Below are positions 23,529-45,405 of a DNA stretch of 61,190 bases, in pieces. Each line of letters begins with the position of its first letter. Position 1 is the stretch's first letter. A program made the position numbers and the translations under genes. The notes beneath the pieces are model-generated. The model did no database searches. It was not told where the DNA came from and worked only from the letters and a program-made list of their open reading frames with translations. The DNA is from Alistipes sp. (GTDB lineage Bacteria; Bacteroidota; Bacteroidia; Bacteroidales; Rikenellaceae): assembly GCA_017483225.1 (NCBI GenBank), contig JAFULF010000023.1, positions 1 to 61,190 on the forward strand, in the 5' to 3' direction.

Positions 23529-23648
23529 TCCGTAGATTGCGAAGGAGATTGCGAAGGGAGGCTTAGTCGCTACCGTTCCGAGAGAGTATGTGACTGTCAG
23601 ACCCCACGCAAACAAAGACGGCAGTTGCCACTAAAAAGCGGAAAGAGT

Positions 23649-23774
23649 TTTTTTTAATTTTTAGGAGGCAAATGCAACGCTGTCGAGTATGCCTTGGCAG
23701 GAGCATACTTGGCGTATGTGACTGTCAAGGCACACGCAGACAAAGGCCGCAGTTGTCACTAAAAATTAAAAAAA
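23649..23774 (+). repeat. Family B structured element, copy B1 (abuts rimP)
   Basis: Terminal inverted repeat of 16 bp (23649-23664 with 23759-23774, TTTTTTTAATTTTTAG paired with its complement). Inside are the conserved box GCAACGCTGTCGAGTA, then a hairpin with GCCTTGGCAG/CTGTCAAGGC outer stem, GAG/TGA internal loop and CATAC/GTATG inner stem, then CACGCAGACAAAGG. The right arm ends one base before the rimP start codon, so if folded as RNA it would hide the A-rich ribosome-binding region. A partial second copy lies directly upstream (about 23585-23638). Confidence 0.8.
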
Positions 23775-23775
23775 G

Positions 23776-24240
23776 ATGGATATTGTAAAGGTAAAAGAGA
23801 TTGTAGAGAGCAAGTTGGAGGAGACAGATATGTTCGTGGTTGATTGCACGATAAACCCTTCAAACGAGATTATGCTGACACTGGACAGCGACACAAGAGT
23901 AACAATTGATGCGTGCGCAGAGTTGAGCCGTGCGGTGAATGAGGCATTCGACCGTGATGAGGAGGACTTCTCGCTGACGGTAGCTTCGGCAGGCATTGGC
24001 GAGCCGTTGAAGATGGTGCGCCAATACAGCAAGGTTGTAGGCTCTCCTGTGGAGGTGTTGCTGACAAACGGCATAAAGCTGCTGGCGACACTCGATGCTG
24101 CCGACGAGCAGGGTATAACGATATCCTACGACGAGAAGGTAGCGGTAGAGGGTAAGAAGCGCAAGGAGTTACAGCACACCGTGCGCACATACACCTACGC
24201 CGAGATAAAGTCCGCCAAGGAGTACCTCGACTACAAATAG
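23776..24240 (+). CDS. rimP: Ribosome maturation factor RimP
   Basis: 154 residues, normal for the family. It assists late 30S subunit assembly. The N-terminal alpha/beta domain holds FVVDCTINPSNEIMLTLDSD and VTIDACAELSRAVNEAF; the C-terminal SH3-like domain starts with VGSPVEVLLTNGIKLLATL and ends in the ITISYDEK region. The order rimP-nusA-infB is conserved across bacteria and supports the call. The start follows a family B element directly (see 23649-23774). Confidence 0.96.
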   Translation: MDIVKVKEIVESKLEETDMFVVDCTINPSNEIMLTLDSDTRVTIDACAELSRAVNEAFDRDEEDFSLTVASAGIGEPLKMVRQYSKVVGSPVEVLLTNGIKLLATLDAADEQGITISYDEKVAVEGKKRKELQHTVRTYTYAEIKSAKEYLDYK

Positions 24241-24294
24241 CGGACAAGCAAGATTTGCAAACAAAGACAAAAAAACAATAAAAACACAAACAAG

Positions 24295-25551
24295 ATGACA
24301 AAGAAAGTTGACAATCTTAACTTAATCAGCAACTTTGCAGAGTTTAAGGAGCTGAAAAACATCGACAAATCGACGATGATTGGTGTTCTTGAAGATGTCT
24401 TCCACCACGCACTGCAAAAGCAGTACGGCACGGATGAGAACTTCGACGTGATTATCAACGCCGACAAGGGCGACCTCGAAATCTGGCGCAACCGCACAGT
24501 GGTTGCCGACGAGGATTTTGCGGATGCCGTGCGTGAAATCAAGTTCTCGGAGATTCAGGAGATAGACCCTTCATTCGAGATTGGCGATGAGTACACCGAC
24601 CAGATATCGTTCGCATCGTTTGGTCGTCGTGCCGTTCTGTCGTTGCGCCAGAACCTCGCCTCCCACATCCTCGACCTCGAAAAGGCAAACCTCTTCGAGA
24701 AGTACTCGTCGAAGGTTGGCGAGATTATCTCGGGCGAGATTTATCAGGTGTGGAAGAAGGAGGTGCTGCTCGTGGACGACGAGGACAACGAGCTCATCCT
24801 GCCTAAGTCGGAGCAGATTCCGAGCGACTTCTACCGCAAGGGCGACACCCTGAAAGCGATTGTCAAGAGCGTGGAGATGAACAACAACACCCCACGCATC
24901 ATCCTCTCCCGTACCGCCAACCAGTTCTTGGAGCGTCTGTTTGAGGCGGAGGTACCGGAGATTTTCGATGGTCTTATCACCATCAAGAAGATTGCCCGCA
25001 TCCCGGGCGAGAGAGCCAAGGTGGCTGTGGAGTCTTACGACGACCGCATCGACCCTGTTGGCTCCTGCGTAGGTGTCAAGGGTTCCCGTATCTACTCCAT
25101 CGTCAAGGAGTTGCGCAACGAGAACATTGACGTTATCAACTACACCTCCAACACCAAACTGCTCATCCAGCGTGCGCTCAACCCTGCCAAGATATCGAAC
25201 ATCGTGCTTGACGAGGAGAAGATGACCGCATCGGTATATTTGAAGCCGGAGGAGGTTTCGGTGGCAATTGGTCGTGGAGGTCTCAACATCCGTCTGTCGA
25301 AGATGCTCACCGGTTACGACATCGACGTATATCGTGAGATTGAGGAGGAGGATGTTGCTCTGAACGAGTTTGCAGACGAGATTGAGCCTTGGATTATCGA
25401 TGCACTGCATCGTGCCGGCTACGACACCGCAAAGAGCGTTCTCGACCTCTCGATAGAGACTATCGCCGCACGTGCCGACCTCGAAATCGAGCAGGCGGAG
25501 AAGATTGTCGAGATTCTGCGAGCAGAGTTCGATACAGAGGTGGAGGAGTAG
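24295..25551 (+). CDS. nusA: Transcription termination/antitermination factor NusA
   Basis: 418 residues, the short Bacteroidetes form. It binds RNA polymerase and modulates pausing, termination and antitermination. The N-terminal polymerase-binding domain includes VLEDVFHHALQKQYG. S1 domain: GEIISGEIYQVWKKEVLLVD. Two KH domains follow: DPVGSCVGVKGSRIYSIVKE and SVAIGRGGLNIRLSKMLTG. A C-terminal helix-hairpin-helix stretch (HRAGYDTAKSVLDLSIETIA) ends the protein. It starts 54 nt after rimP. Confidence 0.97.
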   Translation: MTKKVDNLNLISNFAEFKELKNIDKSTMIGVLEDVFHHALQKQYGTDENFDVIINADKGDLEIWRNRTVVADEDFADAVREIKFSEIQEIDPSFEIGDEYTDQISFASFGRRAVLSLRQNLASHILDLEKANLFEKYSSKVGEIISGEIYQVWKKEVLLVDDEDNELILPKSEQIPSDFYRKGDTLKAIVKSVEMNNNTPRIILSRTANQFLERLFEAEVPEIFDGLITIKKIARIPGERAKVAVESYDDRIDPVGSCVGVKGSRIYSIVKELRNENIDVINYTSNTKLLIQRALNPAKISNIVLDEEKMTASVYLKPEEVSVAIGRGGLNIRLSKMLTGYDIDVYREIEEEDVALNEFADEIEPWIIDALHRAGYDTAKSVLDLSIETIAARADLEIEQAEKIVEILRAEFDTEVEE

Positions 25552-25653
25552 TCCTCCGTGCGGCGGCGCCGAGGATGGCACGCCACACCGCACCCCACCG
25601 AACAAGGCGGTGCGAGCAAACGTAAGTTGATAACGAAAAAAAGTAGAATAAAT

Positions 25654-28413
25654 ATGGAGAATGGAAAGAAGTTACGCCTTATACAGGTAGCCAAGGAGTT
25701 CAAGGTCGGCTTGAACACCATCACGGACTATCTGCGTAAGAAGAACGTGAACATTGAGAGTTCGCCCAACACGTCGATTGACAGCGACACCTATGCTCTG
25801 ATTGAGAAGGAGTTTGGCAATAACCGTTCCAGCGCAAATGCTCGTGACAGCGTGCGTGAGAAGATTGCAGCCAAGCAGACCACCGTATCTATCAAGGAGG
25901 ATAAGCCTGCACCGGTCAAGAACATCGAGGTAAAGAGCGAGATTGCGCAGCCGAAGATTCTTGGCAAGGTAGAGATAGACAAGAGGGGCAACATCATCCA
26001 GTCGAAGCCACAGGAGGCGAAGGTGGAGACACCGAAGGCTGAGCCTACCCCTGCACCGAAGGTGGAGGAGAAGCCGCAGCCGGCCCCTGCACCTGCACCA
26101 AAGCCGCAACCACAGCCTGCACCAAAGGCGGAGGATAAGCCTGCGCAGACGGCGCCGCAGGCAGCACCGGCACCTGCGCAAGCTCCAAAGCAGGAGCAGC
26201 AGCGTGATGTGCCGCAGTTCCGACCTACGGAGGCACCTACGCTCGCCGGCCCGCAGATTCTGGGCAAGATGGATGTATCGGGAATGGTTCCGGGAGGCAA
26301 GCACCGCCGCAAGCGCTTGGAGAAGGAGAAGGTGGATATCGCCCGCCAGAGCCAGCAGCCACAAGGCAAGAAGAATAAGGGCAACGGAGGTAACGCCAAC
26401 GGCAATGCCAACGTGCCAAACAACAATAAGGGTAACAACAACCAGCCACAGGGTGGTGGCAAGAAGAATAAGCACCAGAATCCTGCACCGAAGCCTGTTG
26501 TACGTCCGGAGGTAAGCGACGAGGAGGTATCAAAGCAGGTTAAGGATACACTGGCACGTCTGACCGCCAAGGGCGCAAAGAGCAAGGGCGCAAAGTACCG
26601 CAAGGAGAAGCGTGAGGAGGTTCGTGAGCGTATGAACGAGGCGGTAGAGCGCGAGGAGATGGAGCGCAAGGTGCTGAAAGTGACGGAGTTCGTCACAGTA
26701 AGCGAAGTTGCGACGATGATGAATGTCTCGCCTATGGATGTCATCTCGGCGTGTATGAACCTCGGTCTGATGGTATCCATCAACCAGCGTCTGGACGCCG
26801 AGGCATTGGTAGTCGTGGCCGAGGAGTTCGGCTTCACCACCGAGTTCGTATCGGCAGAGATTCAGGAGGCTATCGGCGAAGAGGATGCCGACACTCCGGA
26901 GGATTTGTTGCCACGCCCACCTATCGTGACCGTTATGGGACACGTTGACCACGGTAAGACCTCCCTGCTCGACAATATCCGTAAGACGAATGTCATCGCC
27001 GGCGAGGCGGGAGGTATCACACAGCACATCGGTGCATACTCCGTGGAGTTGAACGGACAGAAGATTACCTTCCTCGACACGCCGGGTCACGAGGCCTTTA
27101 CAGCGATGCGTGCCCGTGGTGCGAAGATTACCGACGTGGCGATTATCATCGTGGCAGCCGACGACAAGGTGATGCCGCAGACCATCGAGGCTATCAACCA
27201 CGCCCAGGCGGCAGGTGTGCCTATGGTCTTTGCAATCAACAAGATAGACAAGCCTGCTGCAAACCCTGACGCAATCAAGGAGCAGCTGGCAAATATGAAC
27301 CTCCTCGTAGAGGATTGGGGTGGCAAGTACCAAAGCCAGGATGTATCGGCAAAGAAGGGACTTAACCTCGACAAGCTGCTCGAAAAGGTGCTCTTGGAGG
27401 CGGAGATGCTCGAACTGAAAGCCAACCCTAACAAGCGTGCCAAGGGTACCATCATCGAATCGACGCTCGACAAGGGTCGTGGCTACGTCTCGACGGTGCT
27501 CGTTCAAGATGGTACGCTGCGTGTCGGCGACGTTGTTCTGTCGGGAATCTACACGGGTCGTGTCAAGGCTATGTTCGACGAGAATGGCAACAAGCTCAAA
27601 GAGGCCGGCCCATCGACACCTGTCCAGCTGCTCGGCCTTAACGGCGCACCGCAGGCGGGTGACCAGATTAACGTGATGGAGGATGACCGCTCGGCACGTG
27701 AGATTGCCAACAAGCGTGAGCAGTTGCAACGTATGCAGGGCATTATGACCCAGAAGCACGTGACACTCGACGAGATTGGTCGTCGTATCGCCATCGGCTC
27801 GTTCAAGGAGCTCAACATCATCGTCAAGGGTGACGTGGACGGCTCCGTGGAGGCTATGTCGGGCTCGCTCATCAAGCTCTCGAAGGAGACCGTGCAGGTC
27901 AATGTTATCCACGCTGCCGTGGGTCAGATTTCGGAGAGCGACGTACTGCTCGCCGCAGCCTCAAATGCTATCATCGTGGGCTTCCAGGTACGTCCTTCGG
28001 CGGCGGCACGCAAGGTTGCCGAGCAGGAGGAGATTGAGATTCGCCTCTACTCCATCATCTACGATGCCATCAACGAGATTAAGGATGCCATCGAGGGTAT
28101 GTTGGAGCCGGTGATGAAGGAGGAAATTGTCTGCTCCATCGAGGTATTGGAGACCTTCAAGATTTCGAAGGTGGGAACTATCGCCGGAGGTATGGTACGT
28201 GAGGGTAAGTTGCAGCGCAACACCCTTATCCGTGTCATCCGTGACGGTATCGTTATCCACACAGGCCGCCTCGGCTCCCTCAAACGCTTCAAGGATGATG
28301 TCAAGGAGGTAGTATCGGGCCAGGATTGTGGTCTGAACATCGAGTCCTACAACGATATCCGTATCGGCGATATCATCGAGGGCTACGAGCAGGTAGAGGT
28401 AAAGAGAAAGTAA
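25654..28413 (+). CDS. infB: Translation initiation factor IF-2
   Basis: 919 residues from ATG at 25654 ([16 protein letters not shown]). An upstream GTG-started extension (from 25558) is Arg-rich and unlike the family. The N-terminal IF2_N helix is followed by about 200 residues of Pro/Ala/Lys/Gln-rich linker with [13 protein letters not shown]-type repeats and Asn/Lys-rich stretches. The G domain carries [20 protein letters not shown] and AINKIDKP; domains II-IV close the protein. It brings fMet-tRNA to the 30S subunit and promotes subunit joining. Part of the rimP operon. Confidence 0.98.
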
Positions 28414-28447
28414 ACAACAACCTAAAACACACTAATTTACAAACGCT

Positions 28448-29761
28448 ATGATTAAGTTCGTAACACCGGAAGAGGCCGTCAAAGTAATCAAGTCGGGCGA
28501 CCACATCCATTTGAGTTCCGTGGCTTCGGCGCCACAATGTCTTATCAAGGCTATGTGCGAGCGTGGCCGCAACGGCGAGTTTAAGGATGTACACATCCAC
28601 CACCTCCACACCGAGGGCCCTGCACCATACGCAGACCCTGAGTTCGAGGGTGTATTCCAGCTCGACTCGTTCTTCGTGGGCGGCAATGTCCGCAAGGTAA
28701 CCCAGAGCGGCTATGCTGACTACATTCCAATCTTTTTGAGCGAGACACAGAAGCTCTACCGCAGTGGTGCTGTGCCTTGTAACGTGGCGATGATTCAGGT
28801 CTCAACCCCTGACAAGCACGGCTATGTATCCCTCGGCACCTCGGTAGATGCAACTCTCGCAGCCGTAGAGTGCGCCGAGCACGTTATCGCCGTGGTGAAC
28901 AAGTATGTGCCACGTGCCTTCGGTGACGCTATGATTCACTCGTCGCAGATTGAGTTCTTCGTGCAGGATGACCAGCCACTCGAAGAGGCTCACTTCACCG
29001 AGCCAAACGAGACCGAGGTTAAGATTGGTAAGTACTGCGCAGAGCTTATCGAGGATGGCGCAACCCTCCAAATGGGTATCGGCGCAATCCCTAACGCAGT
29101 GCTCGCACAGCTCGGCGGCCACAAGAACCTCGGCGTACATACCGAGATGTTCGCCGACGGCGTACTCCCTCTTGTAGAGAAGGGCGTAATCAACGGCGCA
29201 GCAAAGAATATCGACAAGGGCAAGATGGTATCTACCTTCCTGATGGGCTCGCAGCGTGTTTATGACTTCATCGACGACAACCCTGGCGTGCTGATGATGG
29301 ACGTGGGCTACACCAACGACCCATATATCATCTCGAAGAACGACCGTGTGACTGCCATCAACTCGGCATTGCAGGTTGATATCACCGGTCAGGTATGTGC
29401 CGACTCCCTCGGCCGCAAGTTCTACTCGGGCGTGGGTGGTCAAATCGACTTCATCTATGGTGCATCCCTCTCCAAGGGCGGTAAGGCCATTATCGCTATG
29501 CCGTCAATCACCAACAAGGGCGTATCGAAGATTTCGGATGCTCTGACCGAGGGTGCCGGCGTGGTAACTACCCGTAACCACATCCACTGGTTCGTGACCG
29601 AGAACGGAGCCGTTGACCTCTATGGCAAGAGCTTGCAGGAGCGTGCCCGCCTCATCATCTCTGTTGCTCACCCATCAGCACAGGAGGCCCTCGACGAGGC
29701 AGCATTCAACCGCTACGGCAGCCACCACCACTATATTAAAAGCTATATGGACAAGAAGTAA
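28448..29761 (+). CDS. Acetyl-CoA hydrolase/transferase family CoA-transferase
   Basis: 437 residues. Family I CoA-transferases of this type move CoA between acetate and acyl-CoAs such as butyryl-, 4-hydroxybutyryl-, propionyl- or succinyl-CoA. The catalytic Glu is in GVHTEMFADG near residue 240. Gly-rich CoA loops GIGAIPNAVLAQLGG and GVGGQIDFIYGASLS are visible. In this organism, which carries methylmalonyl-CoA mutase, a propionyl-CoA:succinate or acetate CoA-transferase role in fermentation is plausible but not proved. It starts 34 nt after infB with no visible promoter, so it probably reads from the rimP operon. Its last codons form a 20-bp inverted repeat with 29818-29837. Confidence 0.9.
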   Translation: MIKFVTPEEAVKVIKSGDHIHLSSVASAPQCLIKAMCERGRNGEFKDVHIHHLHTEGPAPYADPEFEGVFQLDSFFVGGNVRKVTQSGYADYIPIFLSETQKLYRSGAVPCNVAMIQVSTPDKHGYVSLGTSVDATLAAVECAEHVIAVVNKYVPRAFGDAMIHSSQIEFFVQDDQPLEEAHFTEPNETEVKIGKYCAELIEDGATLQMGIGAIPNAVLAQLGGHKNLGVHTEMFADGVLPLVEKGVINGAAKNIDKGKMVSTFLMGSQRVYDFIDDNPGVLMMDVGYTNDPYIISKNDRVTAINSALQVDITGQVCADSLGRKFYSGVGGQIDFIYGASLSKGGKAIIAMPSITNKGVSKISDALTEGAGVVTTRNHIHWFVTENGAVDLYGKSLQERARLIISVAHPSAQEALDEAAFNRYGSHHHYIKSYMDKK

Positions 29762-29783
29762 TAACCCCGAAAGGGATTCCATA

Positions 29784-29824
29784 AAGGGAGGTTGTCGATA
29801 ATGCGATGACCTCCCTTGCTTTTA
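29784..29824 (+). terminator. Terminator after the CoA-transferase gene
   Basis: 29784-29797 and 29804-29817 form a 14-bp stem (two G-U pairs) with a 6-nt loop, followed by GCTTTTAA. Confidence 0.85.
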
Positions 29825-29828
29825 ATAT

Positions 29829-29865
29829 AGTGGTGGTACGGCCTTCGGCCACCACCACTTTTTGT
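29829..29865 (+). terminator. Second hairpin terminator
   Basis: AGTGGTGGT (29829-29837) pairs with ACCACCACT (29851-29859), with an inner GGCC-TTC-GGCC stem, followed by TTTTT. The same left arm can also pair with the end of the CoA-transferase coding sequence (29724-29743). Confidence 0.7.
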
Positions 29866-30057
29866 GTTACCTATCCCCCACCCCCCCTTTGACCTTCGGT
29901 CTTCCTCCTTCGCACCTCTGCATAGTGCAAACGAGTTTTGCCCTCTGCTCTCGGTTTGGCGTCGGTTCTGTAAAGGGGGCTTATATTTCCCGAAGCAATA
30001 CTCATCAAGCGTAGCGCACAGACAAGTCCTTTGCCACTCTTTTTTTTGTAGCGGGAG
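29866..30057. other. Gene-free spacer between convergent genes
   Basis: About 190 bp with C-runs (near 29877-29886) and a T-run near 30041. The ORFs crossing it are low-complexity and have no family resemblance. It leads into the family A repeat. Confidence 0.5.
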
Positions 30058-30328
30058 AGCGCAGGCAGTTGGGGGTAAGGCCGTAAGAGCCCACAACCTA
30101 ATGCACAACATTAACAACCTTTAACTACCCTTACCCCCCTTAACAACCCTTAAACTCTTTTGTACTCGACCTTTCGTGCGCAACGAGAAAGGGTTGTTAA
30201 AGGGCATTAAAGGCTATTAAGGGTAACGCAAGCAATTTGAGTAGGGTCGTAAAGTCCGCAGCCTTTTGCGCATCATTAACAGCCCTTGATTCCCCTTAAT
30301 CTCCATTAACAACCTTAATCCTTGCGCA
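30058..30328. repeat. Family A intergenic repeat, copy A3 (two cores)
   Basis: Two core units are present: AAGGCCGTAAGAGCCCACA near 30077 and AGGGTCGTAAAGTCCGCAG near 30243. Right-arm decamers CATTAACAAC/CTTTAACTAC/CCTTACCCCC/CTTAACAACC start near 30109, left-arm decamers GGTTGTTAAA/GGGCATTAAA/GGCTATTAAG near 30192, and a final right arm near 30272-30320. GTGCGCAAC and TTGCGCAA flank the units. The repeat sits between the 3' ends of the CoA-transferase and ppiD genes. Confidence 0.8.
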
Positions 30329-30398
30329 AAAAAAAGACAGCCATCCACGGTGACTGTCTTGCCATTTAAGCGTAACGAAGTATTTTCATCTAATGCTC

Positions 30399-30525
30399 AA
30401 AAAATTATTTCGAGGCGAAAAGTGCAACGCTGTCGAGTACGACGTGGTAGGAGCATACTGGGCGTATGTGACTATCACGTCGCACGCAGACGAAGGAAGC
30501 AATTTCCCCTCGAAATAGTTTTTTT
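30399..30525 (+). repeat. Family B structured element, copy B2 (ends in the ppiD stop codon)
   Basis: Terminal arms 30399-30415 and 30509-30525 pair over 17 bp with one G-U. Conserved box GCAACGCTGTCGAGTA; hairpin GACGTGGTAG/CTATCACGTC with GAG/TGA internal loop and CATAC/GTATG inner stem; then CACGCAGACGAAGG. The right arm's last T residues are also part of the ppiD stop codon (TAA on the minus strand, 30524-30526). The element is antisense to ppiD in the orientation shown. Confidence 0.8.
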
Positions 30526-32557
30526 AGAAGAAGGATACAGACTCATCCACAACCTCCGCCAACTCCTGCACTGCATAGAGTGCTCGGGAAGCGGCGTTGC
30601 GCTCGGCATCAGCCTGTGCCTTCACCTTCTCAGCCTCGGTGGTCTGTGGCTCTGCCGCAGCAGCTACCTCGTCCACGCATACCACGAAGACACCACTTGC
30701 GCCCTGCATAGGTGCGGAGAGCTTACCTACCTCTGCGGATGCTATGGCACCGAGGATACGTGGCTCCACGCCGATACCAGGGATATAGTATGCACCGAGC
30801 TTCACGTCGTCGAACTCCTGAACCTTCGCTCCGGCAGCCTCGGCAGCCTCCTCGATGGTTGCGCCCTCGAACTTGGATGCCAGCACCTCGAATTTCTTAT
30901 CACGGAGCAGGATGGTGCGAATCTGCTGAGCTACCTCCTTCACGCTCTTGTACTCTGCGTCATTTACGGCGGTGAGGGTTGCGATAACGTATGCATCATC
31001 AACCTTGATGATGTCAGACACGTCGCCTACCTTTGCCTCGTTAGCCCAACGTACAACCTCTACCGAGTTGCCGTCGATACCACGCACGAGGCGCTCGCCA
31101 CGCTGTACGTTCATCGAGCGGCTCGACAGGTTCTGTGCCGACACAGCCTCGTTGAACTTCTCCACCGAACCCTTGGCAGCAACTGCAAGGGTGCTTGCGT
31201 TGTTGTGGATATTGCGCTTGGTATCCTGCGAAGCCTCAACCTTGTAGTTGAGGGTTGCGATGCGGTAGTGCTTCTTTGCTGCGCTGAGTGACTCGACCTT
31301 CATCAGCTGGATAGAGTTGCCGAGTACCACCTTCACAACCTGACCCTTGCGCACGCCCTTGAAGGCATCCGCAAACTCAGGTGCAAAGCTTGCGTATGTC
31401 ACCTCGCCGATGTTACCGCCATCAGCAGCGGTCTCTGCGATAGAGTGCTCCTTGGCCAGTGCCTCGAAAGATGCGCCCTTGCGCAACTCTGCGAGCAGCT
31501 CCTCAGCCTTTGCATCCTCGGTATAAGGGAGGACGATGTGACGGAGGGTAAGCTTCTCCGGTGCGGTGCGAGTCTCCACAACACGTGTAGCGTGCCACTC
31601 GTCGCCAACCAACTCCGGACCGTATGTGCGGCCTGCTGCCAGAGCCTTTGCCTCGTCCTTGCCGTAGCCATCAAGGGTCACAAAGGTCTGTGCCACAGAT
31701 GCGTGGCGGTTATCACGAGCATAAGCCTTCACGTCCGCAGCCGCAGCGAATGCCTCCGTAGCGGTCTTCACCTCTGCCTCCACAGCAGCCTTATCTGCCT
31801 CGGTAGCCTCTACGTCGAATACCACGTATGAGAGGGTGCGGTAAGGGGTCTGCTTGTACTGCTCCTTGTTAGCCTTATAGTAAGCCTTAATCTCCTTGTC
31901 CGACACGTTTACGAGCGAGTCAGCCACGGTGTGGTAGCGAAGCATTGCGTAGCGGCCCTTGTATGTGTTGTTCTCGGCAGCGACACCACGCTCCACCTGC
32001 AACGAGTTGGCGTATGCGCTGTTACGCACCAGAGCAACATACTTTGTGAGGGCACGGTCGAGCTTCGCCTGCTTCTGGATAAGGCGCCACATCTGCGCTG
32101 CCTGCGGGTTGCTCTCCACCTGCTTCAAGAACTCGGTCACAGCCTCAACGCTATACTCGCCGGTCTGTGGGTTACCGAATACGCTTGCATATACGTTAGA
32201 GGCCTGCTCGCCTTTAAGCATTGCGGTATGCTCTGCATTGGACACCTCAATACCCATATCCTCCAAGCCCGGAGTGAGCACGTGGTCAGCCACAAGGCTC
32301 TGCCAAGTAGCCGAGAGCAGCTGTGCGGCCTGCTGCTCGTCGTAAGCCTCACCGCCCATCTGTGCCTTAACATCATCATACGCTGCGAGGAACTCCGAGT
32401 AGAGTATCTTCTCGCCATCAATCACGCCAACCTTAGGGTCGTTACCGGAGAATCCCATCTCTGTTTTGAGAGAGAGGATAAAAGCCAAAAGCGCACCTGC
32501 AATAACTGCTGTAAGAAGGATGCCGAATTTGGTTCTCAAAGTGTTCAAACTTGCCAT
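30524..32557 (-). CDS. ppiD: PpiD/SurA-type periplasmic peptidyl-prolyl isomerase
   Basis: 677 residues. One N-terminal transmembrane helix (about residues 12-30, GILLTAVIAGALLAFILSL) anchors the protein in the inner membrane with the rest in the periplasm. A SurA-N-like region follows (VGVIDGEKILYSEFLAAYDDV, a pattern typical of PpiD in Bacteroidetes). A parvulin domain near residues 340-430 contains LRHIVLPYTED, ASFEALAKEHSIAETAADGG and FADAFKGVRKGQVV. It helps fold outer-membrane and secreted proteins. The gene is last in the envelope cluster and has its own -7 box at 32598. Its stop codon overlaps family B copy B2. The symbol is by resemblance to PpiD architecture. Confidence 0.88.
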   Translation of the reverse strand: MASLNTLRTKFGILLTAVIAGALLAFILSLKTEMGFSGNDPKVGVIDGEKILYSEFLAAYDDVKAQMGGEAYDEQQAAQLLSATWQSLVADHVLTPGLEDMGIEVSNAEHTAMLKGEQASNVYASVFGNPQTGEYSVEAVTEFLKQVESNPQAAQMWRLIQKQAKLDRALTKYVALVRNSAYANSLQVERGVAAENNTYKGRYAMLRYHTVADSLVNVSDKEIKAYYKANKEQYKQTPYRTLSYVVFDVEATEADKAAVEAEVKTATEAFAAAADVKAYARDNRHASVAQTFVTLDGYGKDEAKALAAGRTYGPELVGDEWHATRVVETRTAPEKLTLRHIVLPYTEDAKAEELLAELRKGASFEALAKEHSIAETAADGGNIGEVTYASFAPEFADAFKGVRKGQVVKVVLGNSIQLMKVESLSAAKKHYRIATLNYKVEASQDTKRNIHNNASTLAVAAKGSVEKFNEAVSAQNLSSRSMNVQRGERLVRGIDGNSVEVVRWANEAKVGDVSDIIKVDDAYVIATLTAVNDAEYKSVKEVAQQIRTILLRDKKFEVLASKFEGATIEEAAEAAGAKVQEFDDVKLGAYYIPGIGVEPRILGAIASAEVGKLSAPMQGASGVFVVCVDEVAAAAEPQTTEAEKVKAQADAERNAASRALYAVQELAEVVDESVSFF

Positions 32558-32597
32558 ATTACTTTTTGTTTTGATTAAAATATTCGTTTTTAGCCTC

Positions 32598-32605
32598 CAA
32601 AGATA
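32598..32605 (-). promoter_or_regulatory. -7 box for ppiD
   Basis: TATCTTTG on the minus strand, 40 nt upstream of the ppiD start codon. No -33 TTTG is seen. It lies in the 80-nt gap after the CBS/CorC gene, so ppiD may have extra independent expression. Confidence 0.5.
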
Positions 32606-32637
32606 GTCAATTTATTTAGAAATCGTATCGTTTTTCG

Positions 32638-33906: not shown

Positions 33907-33934
33907 ACTCCTTCGTTATGCATCATTACCTGAC

Positions 33935-34807: not shown

Positions 34808-34828
34808 AGTGTTATATCGTTTTCTTAA

Positions 34829-36190: not shown

Positions 36191-36254
36191 ATCTATAAAA
36201 CCTTTTGTTAAATTATTTGTTTCTCCATTTTAGGCGGCATCGCCACACGCAGTG

Positions 36255-38382: not shown

Positions 38383-38583
38383 ATCCATCTTGCTTCTATT
38401 TATGTCGGCACCTATCGCCGTCATCTTTTCATATTTACATTCCCTCCAAACCTCCCTTTGGCAAAGGGAGGCTTTGTCGCTACGCTCCAATCTCGGTAAA
38501 AGTATTGCCCTTATCAATGATTAAGTTTGCCATATCCATCTTGCTTCTATTTATGTCGGCACCTATCGCCGTCATCTTTTCAT
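38344..38583 (-). repeat. Direct duplication of the coaX 5' region
   Basis: 38344-38432 (start codon, first codons and leader of coaX) recurs at 38495-38583 with one mismatch over 89 bp, offset 151 bp. The outer copy still encodes MANLIIDKGNTFTEIGA and then stops, so it is a 17-codon remnant. Between the copies lies about 62 bp holding the hairpin CCTCCCTTTGGCAAAGGGAGG (as two 9-bp arms around a short loop) and a family C segment. Confidence 0.9.
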
Positions 38584-38624
38584 TAAATGCTACTCGCTGC
38601 ATTCTCTGCCATCAAAACTCCGCC

Positions 38625-41600
38625 CTACTCCTGCGCAAGTCGTTGCAGCACCTCCACAGCCTCGGCGACACCGGCCACCCTGCGCACGGTCATCGCCAGA
38701 CGGCCGTCACGCTGTTTGAGCACAAACCTGTCAGGCTCGGCAGTAACCTTACGCAACATATTCATAAAGAGGTCGCTACGGTAGAATGGCGAGGAGTCAT
38801 CGCCCACAAACTGCACTATCATCAGCGAGTTTTTGACCTTCACCCTCTCCATACCGAGGGCCATAGCTGCCCAGCGCAAGCGCACCACATTGAGCAGCTC
38901 CACGGCCTCATCCGGCAGTGCACCGAAGCGGTCCGTGAGCCTCTGCTCAAAGGCCCGCAACTCCCTCTCCTGCGTGATGGCATCCAGCTCACGATAGAGG
39001 CGCAGACGCTCCGCCTGCTGTCGCACATACGACTCCGGCAACTCCGCCTCCACGCCGAGCTCTATGGCCACATCATCGACGTAGGTCATCTGCTCGACCA
39101 CCGACTGCTCCTCGTGGCTGAGACCTGCCACATCGAGGCCCTCGGCACGCAGCTCGGCAATAGCCTCATTCATAATCTTCTGGTAGGTCTCAAAGCCTAT
39201 GTCGGCGACAAAGCCGCTCTGCTCGGCACCCAGCAGGTTACCCGCACCACGGATATCCAAGTCCTGCATCGCAATATTGAATCCCGACCCCAAATCCGAG
39301 AACTCCTCGATGGCCCTCAGCCTGCGGCGTGCATCATCCGAGAGGAGTTGGTCGGGCGGCGAGAGGAGGTAGCAGTAGGCCTTGCGGTCACTACGTCCCA
39401 CACGGCCTCGCAGCTGGTGCAGGTTGCTCAGGCCGAAGCGGTCGGCATTGTTGATGATTATCGTATTCACATTCGGGATATCCACACCGCTCTCGATGAT
39501 TGTCGTCGCCACCAGAACATCGAAGTCGCCATAGATGAAGTCCATAATCAGCTTCTCGACCTCCACGGGCTTCATCTGTCCGTGCGCCACACAGACCCTC
39601 GCCTTCGGGCAGAGGCGGGTAATCATACCCTGAATCTGCATCAGGTCCTCCACCCTATTATGGATAAAATAGACCTGTCCGCCACGAGAGAGCTCCTCCT
39701 CCACGGCATCACGCACCAACTCCTCGGAGAAGGTGTGCGACTCGGTGATTATAGGCTGTCTGTTTGGCGGAGGCGTGGATATCACGGAGAGGTCACGAGA
39801 GCCCATAAGCGAGAACTGCAACGTGCGAGGTATAGGCGTAGCCGTCAGCGTCAGCGTATCGACACTCACGCTCATCTGCGTAAGCTTCTCCTTCGCCGCC
39901 ACGCCGAATCGCTGCTCCTCATCTACGATGAGCAGGCCCAAATCCCGAAACTTGACCCCACTGCCGAGCATCTTATGCGTGCCTATCAGTATATCTATCT
40001 TGCCCTGCTCCAAGTCGGCAAGTATCTCCCGTGTCTGCTTCACGCTCTTGGAGCGGTTCAGGTACTCCACCCTCACGGGCAGGTCACGCAGTCGCTCCGT
40101 GAAGGAGCGGTAGTGTTGCAGTGCGAGTATCGTTGTCGGCACCAGCACCGCCACCTGCTTGCCATCCACCGCCGCCTTGAAGGCTGCACGAATCGCCACC
40201 TCGGTCTTGCCGAAGCCCACATCGCCACAGAGCAGTCTGTCCATCGGGCGTGGCGACTCCATATCAGCCTTGACCGCCTCCGTAGCACGCTGCTGGTCAG
40301 GGGTATCCTCCCACTGGAACGATGCTTCGAGGGTCTGTTGCAGATAGCTGTCGGGCGAGAAGGCAAAGCCCGGCGAGGCCTTACGCTTGGCGTAGAGAGC
40401 AATGAGCTCCCTCGATATATCCTTGACCGCCTTCTTGGTCGCATTTTTGAGTTTCTGCCACGCTCCGCCGCCGAGTTTATAAATCTTCGGAGGCGCACCG
40501 TCGCCACTCTTATAGCGTGAGATGCGGTGCAGCGAATGCACATTCACAAAGAGCACATCCCCATCCTTATAGACGAGTTTTATCGCCTCGTGCATCTTGC
40601 CGTTCTCCTCAATCTTGACCAGACCGCCGAAGCGACCCACGCCGTGGTCTATATGCACCACGTAGTCGCCCACCTGCAAGGCGTTGAGCTCCGCCACGGT
40701 CATCTGCTCACTACGGCGTATCTCGCCATTGATGCGGTAGCGTTGGTAGCGGTCGAATATCTGATGCTCGGTGTAGAGTGCCAGACGCATATCCTCATCG
40801 ACAAAGCCCTCGTGCAGAAGCAGTTTCAGGATTTTCAACTTCGCCTCCACACGCCCTATCTGGTGAAATATATTATCCAGACGCTCCGTCTGCGCCCTGT
40901 TCTCGGAGAGTATTCGGCAATCAAATCCTCGCTCCGTATGCGCCACGACATCGTCGGCAAGCATCTCGAAGTTTTTGTTGAATCGAGGCTGCGGACGTGT
41001 GTGGAAGAGTATTGTCGCACGGGCCGGTCGCTCCGCAAGGTTATTGCGCAACGAGAGTATCGTGCTCGTCCCCATACCCTCCAACAGCGACTTGCGAGAG
41101 GTCAGGTGCAGAGTCACCTGCTCCGGCTCCTCGCACTCCAACAGAGCCTTGCGTCGCACCTCGTCAACCTTGCGCAGCACAAACTCCGCATCGTAGAACC
41201 AGTAGTGCGGACCCTCGCCTGCGAAGGTGGCAAAATCGACCCTGCGACCCTCCGTGCGGTTTATATTGGCGATGATATCCACCCCCTGCAAGCGGTCGCA
41301 GGAGAGCTGGTCGCCAATCTCAAAACGTCGTATAGACTCCACCTCGTCACCAAAGAAGTCCAGACGATATGGGCGTGACTCGGCGTAGGAGAAGATGTCG
41401 AAGATACCGCCACGCAGCGAGTACTGCCCCGGCTCATAGACGAAGTCCACCGGCACAAAACCCAGAGCCTCAACGATATCCACCAACTCGGCAACACGCA
41501 ACTGCTCGCCCACCTCCACGTGCAACGACTCGGCACCGAGCCCCTCGGCATCGGCAACAGCCTCCGCCAAAGCCTCCGGATAGGTGCAGACCACGAGGTA

Positions 41601-41951
41601 CTCCTCCGCCATACGATTGCGTATGGCATTCATCGTATTGGTGCGCATAACCACGCTCTCGGCATCCTCCCGCCCATAACTTATCGAGCGCTTATAGGCC
41701 GACGGGAAGAAGAGCACACGCTTCTCGTCAAGCAGCGCATAGAGGTCATTCAGCGCATAGGCAGCAGCATCCCTGTCCTCGGCGACAAGTACGTGTAAAC
41801 CACCCCTTTGCACCACCGTTGCTGCCATATAAAACGAAAGAGCCCCGCCGACTAACTCGTTGAGATAGACGGTGTTGCTCCTTTGTTTCAACTCTTTTTG
41901 CAGTTGCGAGAAGGGTTGTGTTCCCTCCGCCACATTCAGTATTTCGTGCAT
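38625..41951 (-). CDS. mfd: Transcription-repair coupling factor Mfd
   Basis: 1108 residues, full length. It recognises RNA polymerase stalled at DNA damage, pushes it off and recruits UvrA. The UvrB-like N-terminal domains are present (VLFFPSAYKRSISYGREDAE). The RNA-polymerase-interacting CarD-like domain is VGDYVVHIDHGVGRFGGLVKI. The helicase core has Walker A LLCGDVGFGKTEVAIRAA, DEEQRFG, TLTATPIPRTL and the QLRGRVGRSDRKAYCYLL motif VI. A C-terminal TRCF domain is present. The gene follows rng after 72 nt. Confidence 0.97.
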   Translation of the reverse strand: MHEILNVAEGTQPFSQLQKELKQRSNTVYLNELVGGALSFYMAATVVQRGGLHVLVAEDRDAAAYALNDLYALLDEKRVLFFPSAYKRSISYGREDAESVVMRTNTMNAIRNRMAEEYLVVCTYPEALAEAVADAEGLGAESLHVEVGEQLRVAELVDIVEALGFVPVDFVYEPGQYSLRGGIFDIFSYAESRPYRLDFFGDEVESIRRFEIGDQLSCDRLQGVDIIANINRTEGRRVDFATFAGEGPHYWFYDAEFVLRKVDEVRRKALLECEEPEQVTLHLTSRKSLLEGMGTSTILSLRNNLAERPARATILFHTRPQPRFNKNFEMLADDVVAHTERGFDCRILSENRAQTERLDNIFHQIGRVEAKLKILKLLLHEGFVDEDMRLALYTEHQIFDRYQRYRINGEIRRSEQMTVAELNALQVGDYVVHIDHGVGRFGGLVKIEENGKMHEAIKLVYKDGDVLFVNVHSLHRISRYKSGDGAPPKIYKLGGGAWQKLKNATKKAVKDISRELIALYAKRKASPGFAFSPDSYLQQTLEASFQWEDTPDQQRATEAVKADMESPRPMDRLLCGDVGFGKTEVAIRAAFKAAVDGKQVAVLVPTTILALQHYRSFTERLRDLPVRVEYLNRSKSVKQTREILADLEQGKIDILIGTHKMLGSGVKFRDLGLLIVDEEQRFGVAAKEKLTQMSVSVDTLTLTATPIPRTLQFSLMGSRDLSVISTPPPNRQPIITESHTFSEELVRDAVEEELSRGGQVYFIHNRVEDLMQIQGMITRLCPKARVCVAHGQMKPVEVEKLIMDFIYGDFDVLVATTIIESGVDIPNVNTIIINNADRFGLSNLHQLRGRVGRSDRKAYCYLLSPPDQLLSDDARRRLRAIEEFSDLGSGFNIAMQDLDIRGAGNLLGAEQSGFVADIGFETYQKIMNEAIAELRAEGLDVAGLSHEEQSVVEQMTYVDDVAIELGVEAELPESYVRQQAERLRLYRELDAITQERELRAFEQRLTDRFGALPDEAVELLNVVRLRWAAMALGMERVKVKNSLMIVQFVGDDSSPFYRSDLFMNMLRKVTAEPDRFVLKQRDGRLAMTVRRVAGVAEAVEVLQRLAQE

Positions 41952-42023
41952 TTTCTCTTCGGCAAACAGATGCCTTGGTTATGCCCTGTCCTACTCTTAT
42001 CCTTTATCCTTTGGCGTGTCGCA

Positions 42024-43631
42024 CTATCGTCTTACACGTCTGCCCTTCTTGCGGTTGCCTTTGCTCCTCTTTGGCTCCACGGGCATCGAGAGCAGGTCAT
42101 TGCCCTCGTTATCAAGATAGCAAACATCCACCATACCGAGGCTCTGCGATGGGCGGACCGAAATCCACACCCCATATTTGAGCATCCATCGCCACACCAG
42201 AGGCAGAACTCCCTTGCGCAGATATGCCGCCACATAAGGGCTCACCTCCAAGCGGATGAAGCGTCGGCCTCTATCCTGCACCAGCAGCGATATTTGATTC
42301 TCAATCTTGCGGTCGAGCAGCACCGTAGGCTCTATCTTGCCCGTACCCCCACACGTAGGGCACACATCCTGCACGGGACGTACCGCCACGGGACGTATGC
42401 GCTGACGGGTAATCTGCATAAGACCGAACTTGGTCAGTGGCAGTATGGTATGTTTTGCTTTGTCGGTTGCCATCAGTCGCTTCATCTCCTCGTAGAGAGT
42501 CTGTCGGCTTTGGGCCGTGTGCATATCGATAAAATCGACAATCACGATGCCTCCGAGGTCACGCAGACGCAACTGTCGTGCTATCTCGGCTGCGGCAGCC
42601 ATATTCACTTCGAGCACCGTATGCTCGTGGTCATTATCGGCGGTGGTTCTGTTGCCCGAATTGACATCGATAACATTCATCGCCTCGGTCGATTCGATAA
42701 TCAGGTATGCACCACGTTTGAGCGACACATACTTGGCAAAGAGCGACTTTATCTGGCGTGTAATATCGAAGTTGTCGAAAATCGGCACCGTACCCCGATA
42801 TAGTTTTACAATCTTCTCCTTCTCCGGATCTACGGAGTGGATGTAGGCCTTGATATCCGTGTACATCGCCTCGTCATCGACACAAATCTGCGAGAAGGAG
42901 CCGTCGAGGTTATCTCGTATGATTGTGTTCGCACGGCTCATCTCCCCCATCAGCAGGGATGGAGCCTGACGGCGACGAATCTGCTGGCAGGTCTTGTTCC
43001 ACTTCTCCACAGCGGCGAGAATATCCTGCTCGACATCGAGGTCGGTGGCATTCACGGCGGCGGTGCGGATTATCACGCCAAAGTTCTTTGGCAGGATGCC
43101 GGCAGCAACACGTTTAAGTCTTTTTTTCTCCTCATTGGAGCGAATCTTCTGCGACAAAAATACTTTCGAGGAGAATGGCACAAGGACAATATTTCGTCCC
43201 GCCAACGATATGTCGCAGGTGAGTCGGGGGCCTTTGGTAGAGATGGCCTCCTTCGATATCTGAACCATAACCTGCTGACCTACGTGCAGGTAGGAGCCTA
43301 TATCTCCGTCACGCTCAATGCCGTCGTCGAGCTTCAACGCCTCAACCTTCACGGCCTTGTTGCCGGGGGCGTTGCTCGCCACAACCTTATCGAGCGACGG
43401 GAAGTGGGTTCCCAGATCCTGATAGTGGATAAAGGCATCACGCTCGTGTCCTATATTCACGAACGCTGCGTTTAGTCCGGGCAAAATCTTGCGCACCTTA
43501 CCGAGATAGATGTCCCCGACAGAGAAGCCCATCTGTGCGACCTCCCTACCCAACTCGACCAGCTTCTTATCCTCACACAGTGCGAGGCTGATTTCGGTCG
43601 ATGTGACGTTAATTATCAACTCTCTATTCAT
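42024..43631 (-). CDS. rng: Ribonuclease G/E family endoribonuclease
   Basis: 535 residues, close to RNase G. It processes rRNA and decays mRNA at single-stranded 5' monophosphate ends. S1 domain: VGDIYLGKVRKILPGLNAAFVNIGHERDAFIHY (two strands of the fold). Catalytic Asp residues lie in AMNVIDVNSGNRT and IVIVDFIDMHT. The Zn-link is CPTCGGTGK. It follows a hairpin (43717-43748) that separates it from the small basic protein gene. Confidence 0.95.
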   Translation of the reverse strand: MNRELIINVTSTEISLALCEDKKLVELGREVAQMGFSVGDIYLGKVRKILPGLNAAFVNIGHERDAFIHYQDLGTHFPSLDKVVASNAPGNKAVKVEALKLDDGIERDGDIGSYLHVGQQVMVQISKEAISTKGPRLTCDISLAGRNIVLVPFSSKVFLSQKIRSNEEKKRLKRVAAGILPKNFGVIIRTAAVNATDLDVEQDILAAVEKWNKTCQQIRRRQAPSLLMGEMSRANTIIRDNLDGSFSQICVDDEAMYTDIKAYIHSVDPEKEKIVKLYRGTVPIFDNFDITRQIKSLFAKYVSLKRGAYLIIESTEAMNVIDVNSGNRTTADNDHEHTVLEVNMAAAAEIARQLRLRDLGGIVIVDFIDMHTAQSRQTLYEEMKRLMATDKAKHTILPLTKFGLMQITRQRIRPVAVRPVQDVCPTCGGTGKIEPTVLLDRKIENQISLLVQDRGRRFIRLEVSPYVAAYLRKGVLPLVWRWMLKYGVWISVRPSQSLGMVDVCYLDNEGNDLLSMPVEPKRSKGNRKKGRRVRR

Positions 43632-43716
43632 TGGTATCGGCTTGATTTTGTACGGTTTGGCGGCCCTGTCACCGCCACGATTTACAGGTAGCGAATCTTG
43701 CTACTTATTAAATAGG

Positions 43717-43748
43717 TAACGCCAAAGAGAGTTTTTCCTTTGGCGTTA
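43717..43748 (-). terminator. Hairpin after the small basic protein gene
   Basis: TAACGCCAAAG (43717-43727) and CTTTGGCGTTA (43738-43748) form a perfect 11-bp stem with a 10-nt loop. On the minus strand a short T-rich stretch follows. Confidence 0.7.
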
Positions 43749-43784
43749 TAATCCTATTTCAAGCAATATGCCGCCCTCGGCACA

Positions 43785-43874
43785 CTACTTCTTCTTGTGA
43801 CGATCCTTGCGCAGACGCTTCTTACGCTTGTGGGTCGCCATCTTGTGACGCTTATGCTTCTTTCCGTTTGGCAT
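43785..43874 (-). CDS. 29-residue Lys/Arg-rich protein, COX24/AURKAIP1-like
   Basis: The protein is MPNGKKHKRHKMATHKRKKR followed by LRKDRHKKK; 18 of 29 residues are Lys, Arg or His. The HKMATHKRKKRLRK core resembles the AURKAIP1/COX24 (mS38-like) domain found as tiny proteins in Bacteroidetes, which suggests a ribosomal or RNA-binding role. It starts 33 nt after the HU gene and ends before a hairpin, so the two form one transcript. Purifying selection in relatives would confirm that it is real; the ORF is clean, with a start codon and a stop. Confidence 0.8.
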   Translation of the reverse strand: MPNGKKHKRHKMATHKRKKRLRKDRHKKK

Positions 43875-43907
43875 AATTGTGATGGTTTTTAAGTTATTTG
43901 AAAATGG

Positions 43908-44180
43908 TTATTTTACCTTTGCAAGGAAAGTCTTTGCAGGCTTGAATGCAGGGATGTTGTGCTCAGGGATGGTGATTGTAGTATTCTTCGAGATATTACG
44001 AGCCACCTTCTGCGCACGCTTCTTAATAATGAAAGAACCGAAACCACGAAGATATACGTTCTCGCCATTGCTCAACGAGCCCTTAACCTCCTCCATAAAA
44101 GTCTCAACGATGGTCTGGATCTGAACCTTCTCCACACCGGTCTTCTTAGCGATTTCGCTAACGATGTCTGCCTTTGTCAT
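43908..44180 (-). CDS. HU-family DNA-binding protein
   Basis: 90 residues. MTKADIVSEIAKKTGV, then GENVYLRGFGSFIIKKRAQK and the DNA-contacting arm RNISKNTTITIPEHNIPAFKP, with the Pro at the arm tip, are the HU/IHF pattern. It compacts and bends DNA without strong sequence preference. A -7 box lies at 44256-44263. Confidence 0.97.
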   Translation of the reverse strand: MTKADIVSEIAKKTGVEKVQIQTIVETFMEEVKGSLSNGENVYLRGFGSFIIKKRAQKVARNISKNTTITIPEHNIPAFKPAKTFLAKVK

Positions 44181-44255
44181 AATTAGTAATCTGTTTTTGT
44201 ATTAATTTCTACTCTTAATTGACTTCCACAGCCCTAAACAAGTGGAAATCGGCGA

Positions 44256-44263
44256 CAAATATA
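44256..44263 (-). promoter_or_regulatory. -7 box for the HU gene
   Basis: TATATTTG on the minus strand, 75 nt upstream of the start codon. The -33 region (TAAAAT) is only a loose match. Confidence 0.5.
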
Positions 44264-44349
44264 CGTCTAATTTTGCAAACGATAAAATAAAACCTCCTTA
44301 ATTTTCACTCTTTTTTACTCTTTTTCACAAAATTAGGCAATAATTACGC

Positions 44350-44754
44350 CTATCTGTTGAATGCGGCGGCAAAAGTCTCGACCGCCTGGTCAAGGCCCTT
44401 CTGAATCTTCCCGCCGACCATCATACGCATCATCATATTCAACTCGGCGTGCAACACAAAGCGTATGCGTGTGTCGTCAGATGTCACCTCGTGCAGCTGA
44501 ATCCAGAAGGTAAAGTCGATAGGCACACCGCCATCGTCGCCCGTGATTTTCACCTGCTTACCCTCAATCTTGTCGAGCATACGCAGCTTCACGACAAAGC
44601 CTTTGACCTTGAAAGAGCAGGAGTCAGGCGTAGCCTCCCACTCCTCCACCTTATCCGCCACAGCGGGGGTCAGCAGCGAGAAGTCGGAGATAAAGGGGTA
44701 TATCTGCATCGCCGACTTGCGTATCTGTTGTTGTTTAGATTCGTACTTCTCCAT
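44350..44754 (-). CDS. SRPBCC (START-like) domain protein
   Basis: 134 residues. Helix-grip fold features: N-terminal SAMQIYPFISDFSLLTPAVA, middle strands CSFKVKGFVVKLRMLDK and PIDFTFWIQLHEV, and a long C-terminal helix (GKIQKGLDQAVETFAAAF) as in polyketide-cyclase/AHSA1 relatives. It probably binds a small hydrophobic ligand; none can be named. The gene is single, with a -7 box 17 nt upstream of its start. Confidence 0.85.
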   Translation of the reverse strand: MEKYESKQQQIRKSAMQIYPFISDFSLLTPAVADKVEEWEATPDSCSFKVKGFVVKLRMLDKIEGKQVKITGDDGGVPIDFTFWIQLHEVTSDDTRIRFVLHAELNMMMRMMVGGKIQKGLDQAVETFAAAFNR

Positions 44755-44770
44755 AATATCTATTTTGCCG

Positions 44771-44778
44771 CAAAGGTA
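44771..44778 (-). promoter_or_regulatory. -7 box for the SRPBCC gene
   Basis: TACCTTTG on the minus strand, 17 nt before the start codon, so the leader would be about 10 nt. No -33 TTTG is clear. Confidence 0.5.
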
Positions 44779-44794
44779 ATAAAATTTTCGAGAG

Positions 44795-45116
44795 GGCGCA
44801 AGCGATTTATGAGCAAGGTCGTAAGAGGCCGCAGGGGCAGGCTGTGGTATCCTTGGCGCAACGGGCTTGGCGCAACAATAGGGAAATTAGGGAGATTAGG
44901 GAATTTAGAGAGCGTAAGGTTATTCTCACTAAACTCCTTAAATTCCTTAAACTCCCTTTTGCGCAACAATAAAGGCTGTTAAAGGTTATTAAAGGTAATT
45001 AAGGGGAGGCGCAGGCGGTTGGAGCAAGGCCGTAAGAGTCCGTAGCGTTTTTGCGCACCATTAACAACCCTTAATATCCCTTAACCCCCTTAATAGCCTT
45101 TAACTTTTTGCGCCCG
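44795..45116. repeat. Family A intergenic repeat, copy A4 (9-bp and 10-bp arrays)
   Basis: A partial core (GAGCAAGGTCGTAAGAGGCC, near 44817) is followed by an array with a 9-base period (AGGGAAATT/AGGGAGATT/AGGGAATTT near 44880) and its inverted partner (TAAACTCCT/TAAATTCCT/TAAACTCCC near 44930). Next come 10-base units GGCTGTTAAA/GGTTATTAAA/GGTAATTAAG (44973-45002), a full core, and right-arm decamers from 45059 to about 45105. TTGCGCAAC and TTTTGCGC flank these blocks. Confidence 0.8.
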
Positions 45117-45139
45117 ACCTACCCTCCTGTACAACCAAA

Positions 45140-45260
45140 AAAATCATTTTAAGTGATGAGTTGCAACGCTCGCCGATATTCGAAGCGATGGGACATACTT
45201 AGCGTATTTCCCATTGCTGAGAATGAGGTAGCGGAAGCAAATCGCTCTTAAAATGGTTTT
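45140..45260 (+). repeat. Family B structured element, copy B3
   Basis: Terminal arms 45140-45153 and 45247-45260 pair over 14 bp with one G-U. Inside: GCAACGCTCGCCGATAT, then hairpin AGCGATGGG/CCCATTGCT enclosing CATAC/GTAT. This copy is the most diverged; its 3' box is changed (GAATGAGGTAGCGG). It stands 21 nt from copy B4 and shares its arm sequence. Confidence 0.75.
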
Positions 45261-45281
45261 CTCCCCACCTGCACAACCCAT

Positions 45282-45405
45282 AAAAATCATTTTAAGGAGG
45301 CAGTTACAACGCTAACGAGTACGCCACGGTGGAAACATACTCGGCGTATGTGACCATCGTGGCGCACGCAAGTTAAGGCAGTAAATGCCCCTTAAAATGA
45401 TTTTT
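45282..45405 (+). repeat. Family B structured element, copy B4 (ends in the epimerase stop codon)
   Basis: Terminal arms 45282-45297 and 45390-45405 pair perfectly over 16 bp, extended by GGCA/TGCC after one mismatch. Inside: ACAACGCTAACGAGTAC, hairpin GCCACGGTGG/CCATCGTGGC with internal loop AAA/TGA and inner stem CATAC/GTATG, then CACGCAAGTTAAGG. The right arm overlaps the epimerase stop codon (45404-45406). Confidence 0.8.

Follow-up and report, generated by a model that had tools for sequence, protein, structure and literature searches.

Apparent relatives of the enterobacterial ERIC element in the genome of an Alistipes species from the gut

ERIC sequences are widely used for bacterial typing and are regarded as enterobacterial. 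In the published accounts consulted, ERIC is a 127-bp miniature inverted-repeat transposable element (MITE) that occurs in Enterobacteriaceae and Vibrionaceae, has terminal repeats and TA ends, is said to duplicate TA, and affects mRNA stability depending on its orientation; its transfer mechanism was called not elucidated in 2007, and the host range given there is without Bacteroidota (PMC2229807, PMC10969869, PMC3091717, PMC2759123). The present work concerns four structured repeats, B1 to B4, in a 61,190-nt stretch of DNA from Alistipes sp. (GenBank assembly GCA_017483225.1, contig JAFULF010000023.1; referred to in full as the window), which is contig C14 of the 42 contigs of a 1.86-Mb genome. 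Comparison of sequences and folds indicates that the four repeats are ERIC relatives in a gut Bacteroidota genome, and ERIC-type elements apparently occur in many other phyla. We consider it about 75% probable that the repeats are Bacteroidota members of an ERIC superfamily, that is, non-autonomous mobile elements of ~119 to 128 bp that are defined by their fold and a few unpaired and tip bases and not by the sequence of their arms.

An original prediction, made from the letters of the window, had described the four repeats as one family, and covariance-model matches located all four within 2 nt of the boundaries it gave (Table 1). The common plan, with its CATAC/GTATG tip and complementary terminal arms, was confirmed as well, apart from the statement that all four copies have the same tip, as B3 carries the variant GGGACATAC...GTATTTCCC. 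The family itself is real, but the four copies are only a small share of the ~53 places in the genome. The fold is a single long hairpin of ~124 nt, with full-length matches spanning 119 to 128 nt, in which a 16-bp terminal arm is followed by 4+4+1+4+2+11+6 pairs with small internal loops at fixed positions, for 48 pairs in the model. In an alignment of 12 copies from this genome, including three from the window and leaving out B3, the tip (laid out as GGAGCATAC-n5-GTATGTGAC) and the boxes CAACGC and AAGG show little or no change, while most arm positions vary.

Covariation was judged by shuffles and by sliding the pairing partner. Across the 12 copies, 20 of the 48 pairs are altered on both sides, with 79 doubly changed cells against 25.1 +/- 3.5 after shuffling (0 of 500 shuffles reached 79) and only 6 cells changed on one side. 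The proportion of paired cells is 90.6%, against 42 to 53% with the partner slid, and 30 of the 54 unpaired cells (576 in total) lie at columns 32 to 35, where nine copies pair one register off. The G-U pair that had been noted at a constant position is indeed conserved, occurring at columns 48/76 in 12 of 12 aligned copies, three of these from the window; the other fixed non-Watson-Crick places are a GA/GA loop and an A-C at columns 40/84. A second alignment comprised 76 matches, 72 of them distinct, from Alistipes, Tidjanibacter, Desulfobacterota, Clostridia, Providencia, Arcobacter, and others. Here 46 of the 48 pairs are altered on both sides, doubly changed cells number 1227 against 388.8 +/- 17.0 after shuffling, and 89.2% of cells are paired against 38 to 42% when slid, although this alignment was fitted to a covariance model built from the 12 own-genome copies alone (R1) and the structure is thereby favoured.

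The element is both abundant in this genome and found well outside it. B2 used as a blastn query has 22 places in the genome, and a broad covariance model that includes Providencia copies (R2) gave 54 matches at 53 places, some of them partial. R1 matched 27 of 61 genomes. Besides this one, they comprise 25 of 36 congeners and a single weak case (3e-4) among 24 other genomes of the order; since the reverse strands of true copies also score ~40 to 65 bits, weak R1 matches could be any palindrome of that size. The weak congener matches that were viewed, a part of those listed, carry the tip or a tip variant. With R2, 32 of 296 Bacteroidota genomes matched at E <= 1e-5. A single family, comprising two genera, accounts for 28 of these, and in seven viewed copies from that family the boxes are kept and the tip is changed yet paired (AGCGTAC...GTACG(T/C)GA). 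Same-orientation arrays of three elements were observed in this genome (C41:78089-78513 and C39:66484-66830) and in genome G030 (C17:60077-60452).

A scan of species genomes found the exact tip in at least 109 stretches, where base counts predict ~7 by chance. Among the matches listed are Desulfobacterota, Spirochaetales, Clostridia, Myxococcales, Acidobacteriota, Bdellovibrionota, Arcobacter, Pseudoalteromonas, Providencia, and Yersinia. A test of the fold used 80 loci among the matches listed, with copies near contig ends or with N set aside, and covered 69 elements outside Rikenellaceae; several of the 69 share one genome, and the control was a single-letter shuffle of the arms. At least 30 pairs enclose the tip in 60 of the 69, against 58 of 420 shuffled-arm sequences, and both boxes are present in 32 of the 69, against 3 of 420. 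Eight of the 69, including the one from Yersinia, are without a far-reaching fold. Chance palindromes were rejected as an explanation, given the covariation in both the own-genome and the multi-taxon sets and the folding around the tip relative to shuffled arms. Among the matches listed, the loci of Pseudoalteromonas, Lysobacterales, and Clostridia also include some with two tips 113 to 126 nt apart. Viral contigs have the exact tip in 8 stretches, of which 3 loci match R2; the ERIC-type elements in IMG/VR contigs L206, L208, and L213, with R2 values down to 3.5e-10, may be prophage or host sequence. A blastn search of B2 against plasmids and phages gave no match.

The original prediction knew of no named family that would fit. 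The tip, which is that of ERIC, together with the inner boxes and links to Providencia and Escherichia coli, points instead to a relative of ERIC. R1, although it contains copies from this genome alone, matches a Providencia rettgeri element with 26.7 bits (E = 8e-4) and has 12 matches at E <= 0.01 in one P. vermicola genome. The E. coli ERIC beside iscX is in turn 88% identical over 48 nt to the P. rettgeri element, and R2 matches E. coli ERIC with 22.3 bits (E = 1e-4 in 3 kb) over positions 29 to 99. Half of the ERIC sequence used as a query has 2 to 14 places each in 5375 of 5426 E. coli genomes. The elements thus share the core of ERIC in their tip and inner boxes, and the link to E. coli runs through Providencia and the broad model. 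The original prediction had named hits to a known MITE or Rfam family as grounds for its refutation, and the kinship with ERIC is in part such a case, although no Rfam family reached its gathering score on the window copies. On ERIC loci, Rfam family V_AS5 (RF02818) scored 37.8 bits for Providencia and 31.6 bits for E. coli, against a gathering score of 96 bits, and it has no match in the window; judged by these weak matches, this Vibrio "antisense RNA" family may be derived from ERIC. AaHKsRNA22 passes the Rfam threshold at L214 1403-1475, a stretch that adjoins the E. coli copy and may overlap its left arm. With the element in Bacteroidota and other phyla, the reported host range of ERIC is exceeded, and that range is not a property of the element itself. 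In open-licence literature, as represented by titles and the starts of abstracts, no ERIC in Bacteroidota was found, and an earlier report may exist elsewhere. Other MITEs of Bacteroidota have papers of their own (PMC9769881, PMC4596501), and kinship of the present elements with those MITEs is possible.

The elements have a strict orientation at stop codons. Of 42 copies from this genome, 18 have an antisense gene's stop codon at the right end, and 2 have the stop codon of a sense gene at the left end; these are 42 of 45 places, as three irregular or partial ones were dropped, one of which (C35:2103-2218) has a right-hand stop. Among 192 elements at other loci and in other genomes, taken from tip-pattern loci and from genomes chosen for having matches, several per genome, and with open reading frames (ORFs) of at least 100 aa standing in for genes, the right end is at an antisense stop in 60 and the left end is at a stop in 0. 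Removal of likely orthologues by C-terminus leaves 53 distinct genes from the 60 right-end cases, whose stop codons are 41 TAA, 11 TGA, and 8 TAG, and a control zone 67 to 120 nt from the centre has no such bias (17 right, 23 left). In the E. coli copy beside iscX, too, the stop of that gene follows directly after the right end of the element. One preferred orientation of ERIC at stop codons in Yersinia was reportedly described by De Gregorio et al. in 2005. With the right end towards an antisense gene, the mRNA of that gene would carry the complementary strand of the hairpin. Rescue of the stop codon was considered as the sole cause of the bias, but many copies in this genome start with A after TA at both ends, so that either orientation would restore TAA, yet the bias persists. 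Rescue may add to the bias in Desulfobacterales, where the left end often would not restore a stop.

The suggestion of a mobile hairpin element with a strict structure, made as one of several possibilities in the original prediction, is borne out by the multiplicity of copies, the strong covariation, the presence of near-identical copies at separate places, and differences from congeners at three sites. Copies that are 99 to 100% identical lie at different places, although one such pair (C28/C36) may belong to a larger duplication. The three sites were compared by eye in the two nearest congeners (G003 and G006), in which gene order is mostly kept, identity is 68 to 83%, and homology breaks at the elements. 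Before rimP, no element was seen in G003, while in G006 a copy of another subtype lies further upstream. At the stop codon beside B2, both congeners hold a different subtype, with the outermost arms in common and the inner stems different, both paired. The stop codon of the epimerase gene beside B4 is at the same position in both congeners, with no element right there, so the insertion did not shorten the gene. At the ends of the own-genome copies, TA is present at matching offsets on both sides in 7 of 42 and AT in 6 of 42, with any TA at the left in 16 of 42 and at the right in 24 of 42.

We propose that an enzyme would recognise the folded single strand by the tip, the two inner boxes, and the length, in which case the arms may drift while pairing holds. 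It is the freedom of the arms, set against the much smaller freedom of length, tip, boxes, and mismatches, that points to recognition of a folded strand. Insertion would occur at stop codons, mostly TAA, with the right end facing the gene, and the gene would retain its stop. As to which enzyme this might be, none of the Y1, IS630-type, reverse transcriptase, and serine recombinase classes appears necessary, because each is missing from some genomes that carry the element. None of the 37 genus genomes, including the 26 that carry the element, has a Y1_Tnp match, and DDE_3 (IS630-type) is likewise found in none of the 37. RVT_1 was not found in 17 of 25 element-bearing congeners, whose assemblies are incomplete, and Resolvase (serine recombinase) was found neither in this genome nor in 8 of 14 element-bearing congeners (22 congeners searched). 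Seven element-bearing congeners show none of the four classes, in assemblies that are 72 to 96% complete. A search for an autonomous parent copy turned up only an element (L085 1650-1850) in which ~90 nt of other sequence interrupts the tip and the arms still match.

A number of these results weigh against the elements being mobile members of an ERIC superfamily that are recognised by their fold. No enzyme was found among the four classes tested. The TA duplication reported for ERIC has no clear counterpart in the TA and AT counts given above. R1 has no match at E <= 5 to the one E. coli ERIC tested, and R2, with Providencia copies included in the model, aligns only the middle of that element. 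R1 also has no match in 5 of 17 named genomes from other taxa, including Yersinia thracica and Pseudoalteromonas. As most of the multi-taxon loci were chosen by the tip pattern, conservation of the tip among them is no proof. When the fold is measured more laxly, by an outermost enclosing pair at least 90 nt apart, 61 of the 69 listed tip elements outside Rikenellaceae qualify against a high control of 170 of 420. Of the 25 own-genome copies with a close twin, only 9 have a right-hand stop, and 1 a left-hand one. Finally, a fold kept for an RNA role would give much the same covariation.

This last point leads to the possibility that the elements are kept mainly as cis-acting parts of mRNA, such as 3' stabilisers, processing sites, or weak bidirectional terminators, and that mobility is incidental or past. 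Many elements lie at gene ends, terminator-like A-tract and T-tract ends are present on many own-genome copies, and the ERIC literature gives an orientation-dependent effect on mRNA stability. However, near-identical copies at different genes and species differences at the same site look more like insertion, and the adjacency to the stop codon is exact, with no broad zone, which makes this a doubtful account of the elements. In the gapless stem, counted for the 88 of 244 elements in which it is symmetric, there are 781 Watson-Crick pairs, 57 G-U (34 at one position), 23 A-C, and 107 other among 968 cells; these counts do not decide between a fold at the RNA level and one at the DNA level.

Pairing might alternatively be maintained by templated repair within the palindrome, with strand switching copying one arm from the other, and not by selection on the fold. 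The excess of cells changed on both sides in the own-genome copies (79, against 6 on one side) and the scarcity of wobbles in the gapless stem would fit such a process. In one copy, C16:152089-152212, the tip is inverted within intact outer arms, the outcome expected of strand switching in a palindrome, and strand switching is likely to contribute. As the source of the pairing as a whole it seems rather unlikely, as the fixed mismatches and wobbles (the GA/GA loop, the G-U, and the A-C) persist, though copying from arm to arm should erase them, and length and boxes are held across phyla.

The other three explanations concern the route of movement. Retrotransposition, in which RNA would be copied into DNA at a nicked stop codon, predicts the single fixed junction orientation, and this genome has two RVT_1 matches, but we regard it as improbable given the element-bearing congeners in which no RVT_1 was found, with the incompleteness of their assemblies borne in mind, and the small number of wobble pairs for an RNA-selected fold. 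Were the element a MITE of the Tc1/mariner-IS630 kind, mobilised in trans at TA in the way suggested for RUP, the common TA or stop-codon junctions and the TA duplication stated for ERIC would be in line with it, but this reading is disfavoured as very improbable by the absence of DDE_3 from all 37 genus genomes, the terminal sequences that differ between subfamilies, and the lack of a clear TA duplication. A REP/RAYT or IS200-type element, with a Y1 (HUH) transposase acting on the folded strand, would fit fold-based recognition, and the GGAG beside a small hairpin resembles the REP tag, but with Y1_Tnp in none of the genus genomes, this is disfavoured to the point of having hardly any chance.

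Beyond the Bacteroidota members of the ERIC superfamily, it can be suggested tentatively, at somewhat less than even odds, that a pan-bacterial superfamily of mobile hairpins exists, with ERIC as one of its branches, in which sequence is free, the fold is the unit that is inherited, and integration is specific to stop codons and in one orientation, through machinery that lies beyond the four enzyme classes tested and is possibly linked to translation or transcription.

Table 1. Positions of the elements and adjoining genes in the window
Feature	Position	Strand	Remarks
Degenerate right half of ERIC-type element, just upstream of B1	23586..23637	+	84.6% over 52 nt to B1 positions 65-116
B1, ERIC-type element, type-1 tip	23650..23773	+	Model match; right end 2 nt before rimP start codon (23776)
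rimP ORF	23776-24240		RimP_N match
B2, ERIC-type element, type-1 tip	30400..30523	+	Right end abuts TAA stop (30524-30526) of antisense gene for SurA-like peptidyl-prolyl isomerase (PPIase)
B2 tip hairpin CATAC-TGGGC-GTATG	30454..30468	+	Most conserved part of the family
SurA-like PPIase gene	30524..32557	-	Stop codon abutted by B2
B3, ERIC-type element, variant tip GGGACATACTTAGCGTATTTCCC	45139..45261	+	Tandem with B4, 20 bp apart
B4, ERIC-type element, type-1 tip	45282..45405	+	End inside TAA stop (45404-45406) of antisense ribulose-phosphate 3-epimerase gene
Ribulose-phosphate 3-epimerase gene	45404..46072	-	Stop codon overlapped by B4

Some further features of the surroundings were observed. 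By eye, a degenerate ACCTGYACAACCCAT block lies just to the left of the subgroup ending in AAAAATC, in the flanks of ~20 own-genome copies (for example, window 45267-45281), and also occupies the ~20-bp spacer of tandem pairs. Another type of intergenic repeat, with runs of a CCCTTAA/TTAAGGG unit near TTTTTGCGC, adjoins elements at window positions ~30270-30335 and 45060-45115. Elsewhere in the genome (C39:68496-68546), the tip occurs alone in a short hairpin with a T-run, resembling an intrinsic terminator, shortly past an apparent gene end.

The wider family supplies many independent copies for defining what must be conserved, and the placement at stop codons with one orientation holds in several phyla. 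The search for the ERIC enzyme becomes tractable through the comparison of genomes with and without copies. The family also offers a bacterial case in which a fold, more than a sequence, appears to spread.

Among known systems, integron attC sites are likewise folded single strands of similar length whose arms vary and which carry extra-helical bases, and they have constant boxes at the base of the hairpin. The elements described here differ in being conserved at the tip and not at the base, and their outer arms, which have no constant box, are unrelated between subfamilies. RUP, Correia/NEMIS, and YPAL are likewise small palindromic MITE-like repeats of bacteria that often lie near genes, and they are not known to have a tip or boxes in common with ERIC-type elements; RUP is in addition tied to an IS630 enzyme, whereas none was found in the genus here. 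The REP, BIME, and REPIN elements associated with RAYT are also palindromic, intergenic, and non-autonomous. They differ in that REP is 20 to 40 bp (PMC3733652), and in that no Y1 transposase was found in the present sample of the genus. The closest likeness is to ERIC, also called IRU or RU-1, in the length of ~127 bp, the imperfect palindrome, the tip GGAGCATA..TATGTGAC, the right box (CAGC)CAACGC, and the left GGC box, as well as in copies at gene ends with an orientation that, in ERIC too, is reportedly tied to stop codons. In contrast to ERIC, the elements here lack a clear TA duplication and have unrelated arms, several tip subtypes, a Bacteroidota host, and a distribution over many phyla.

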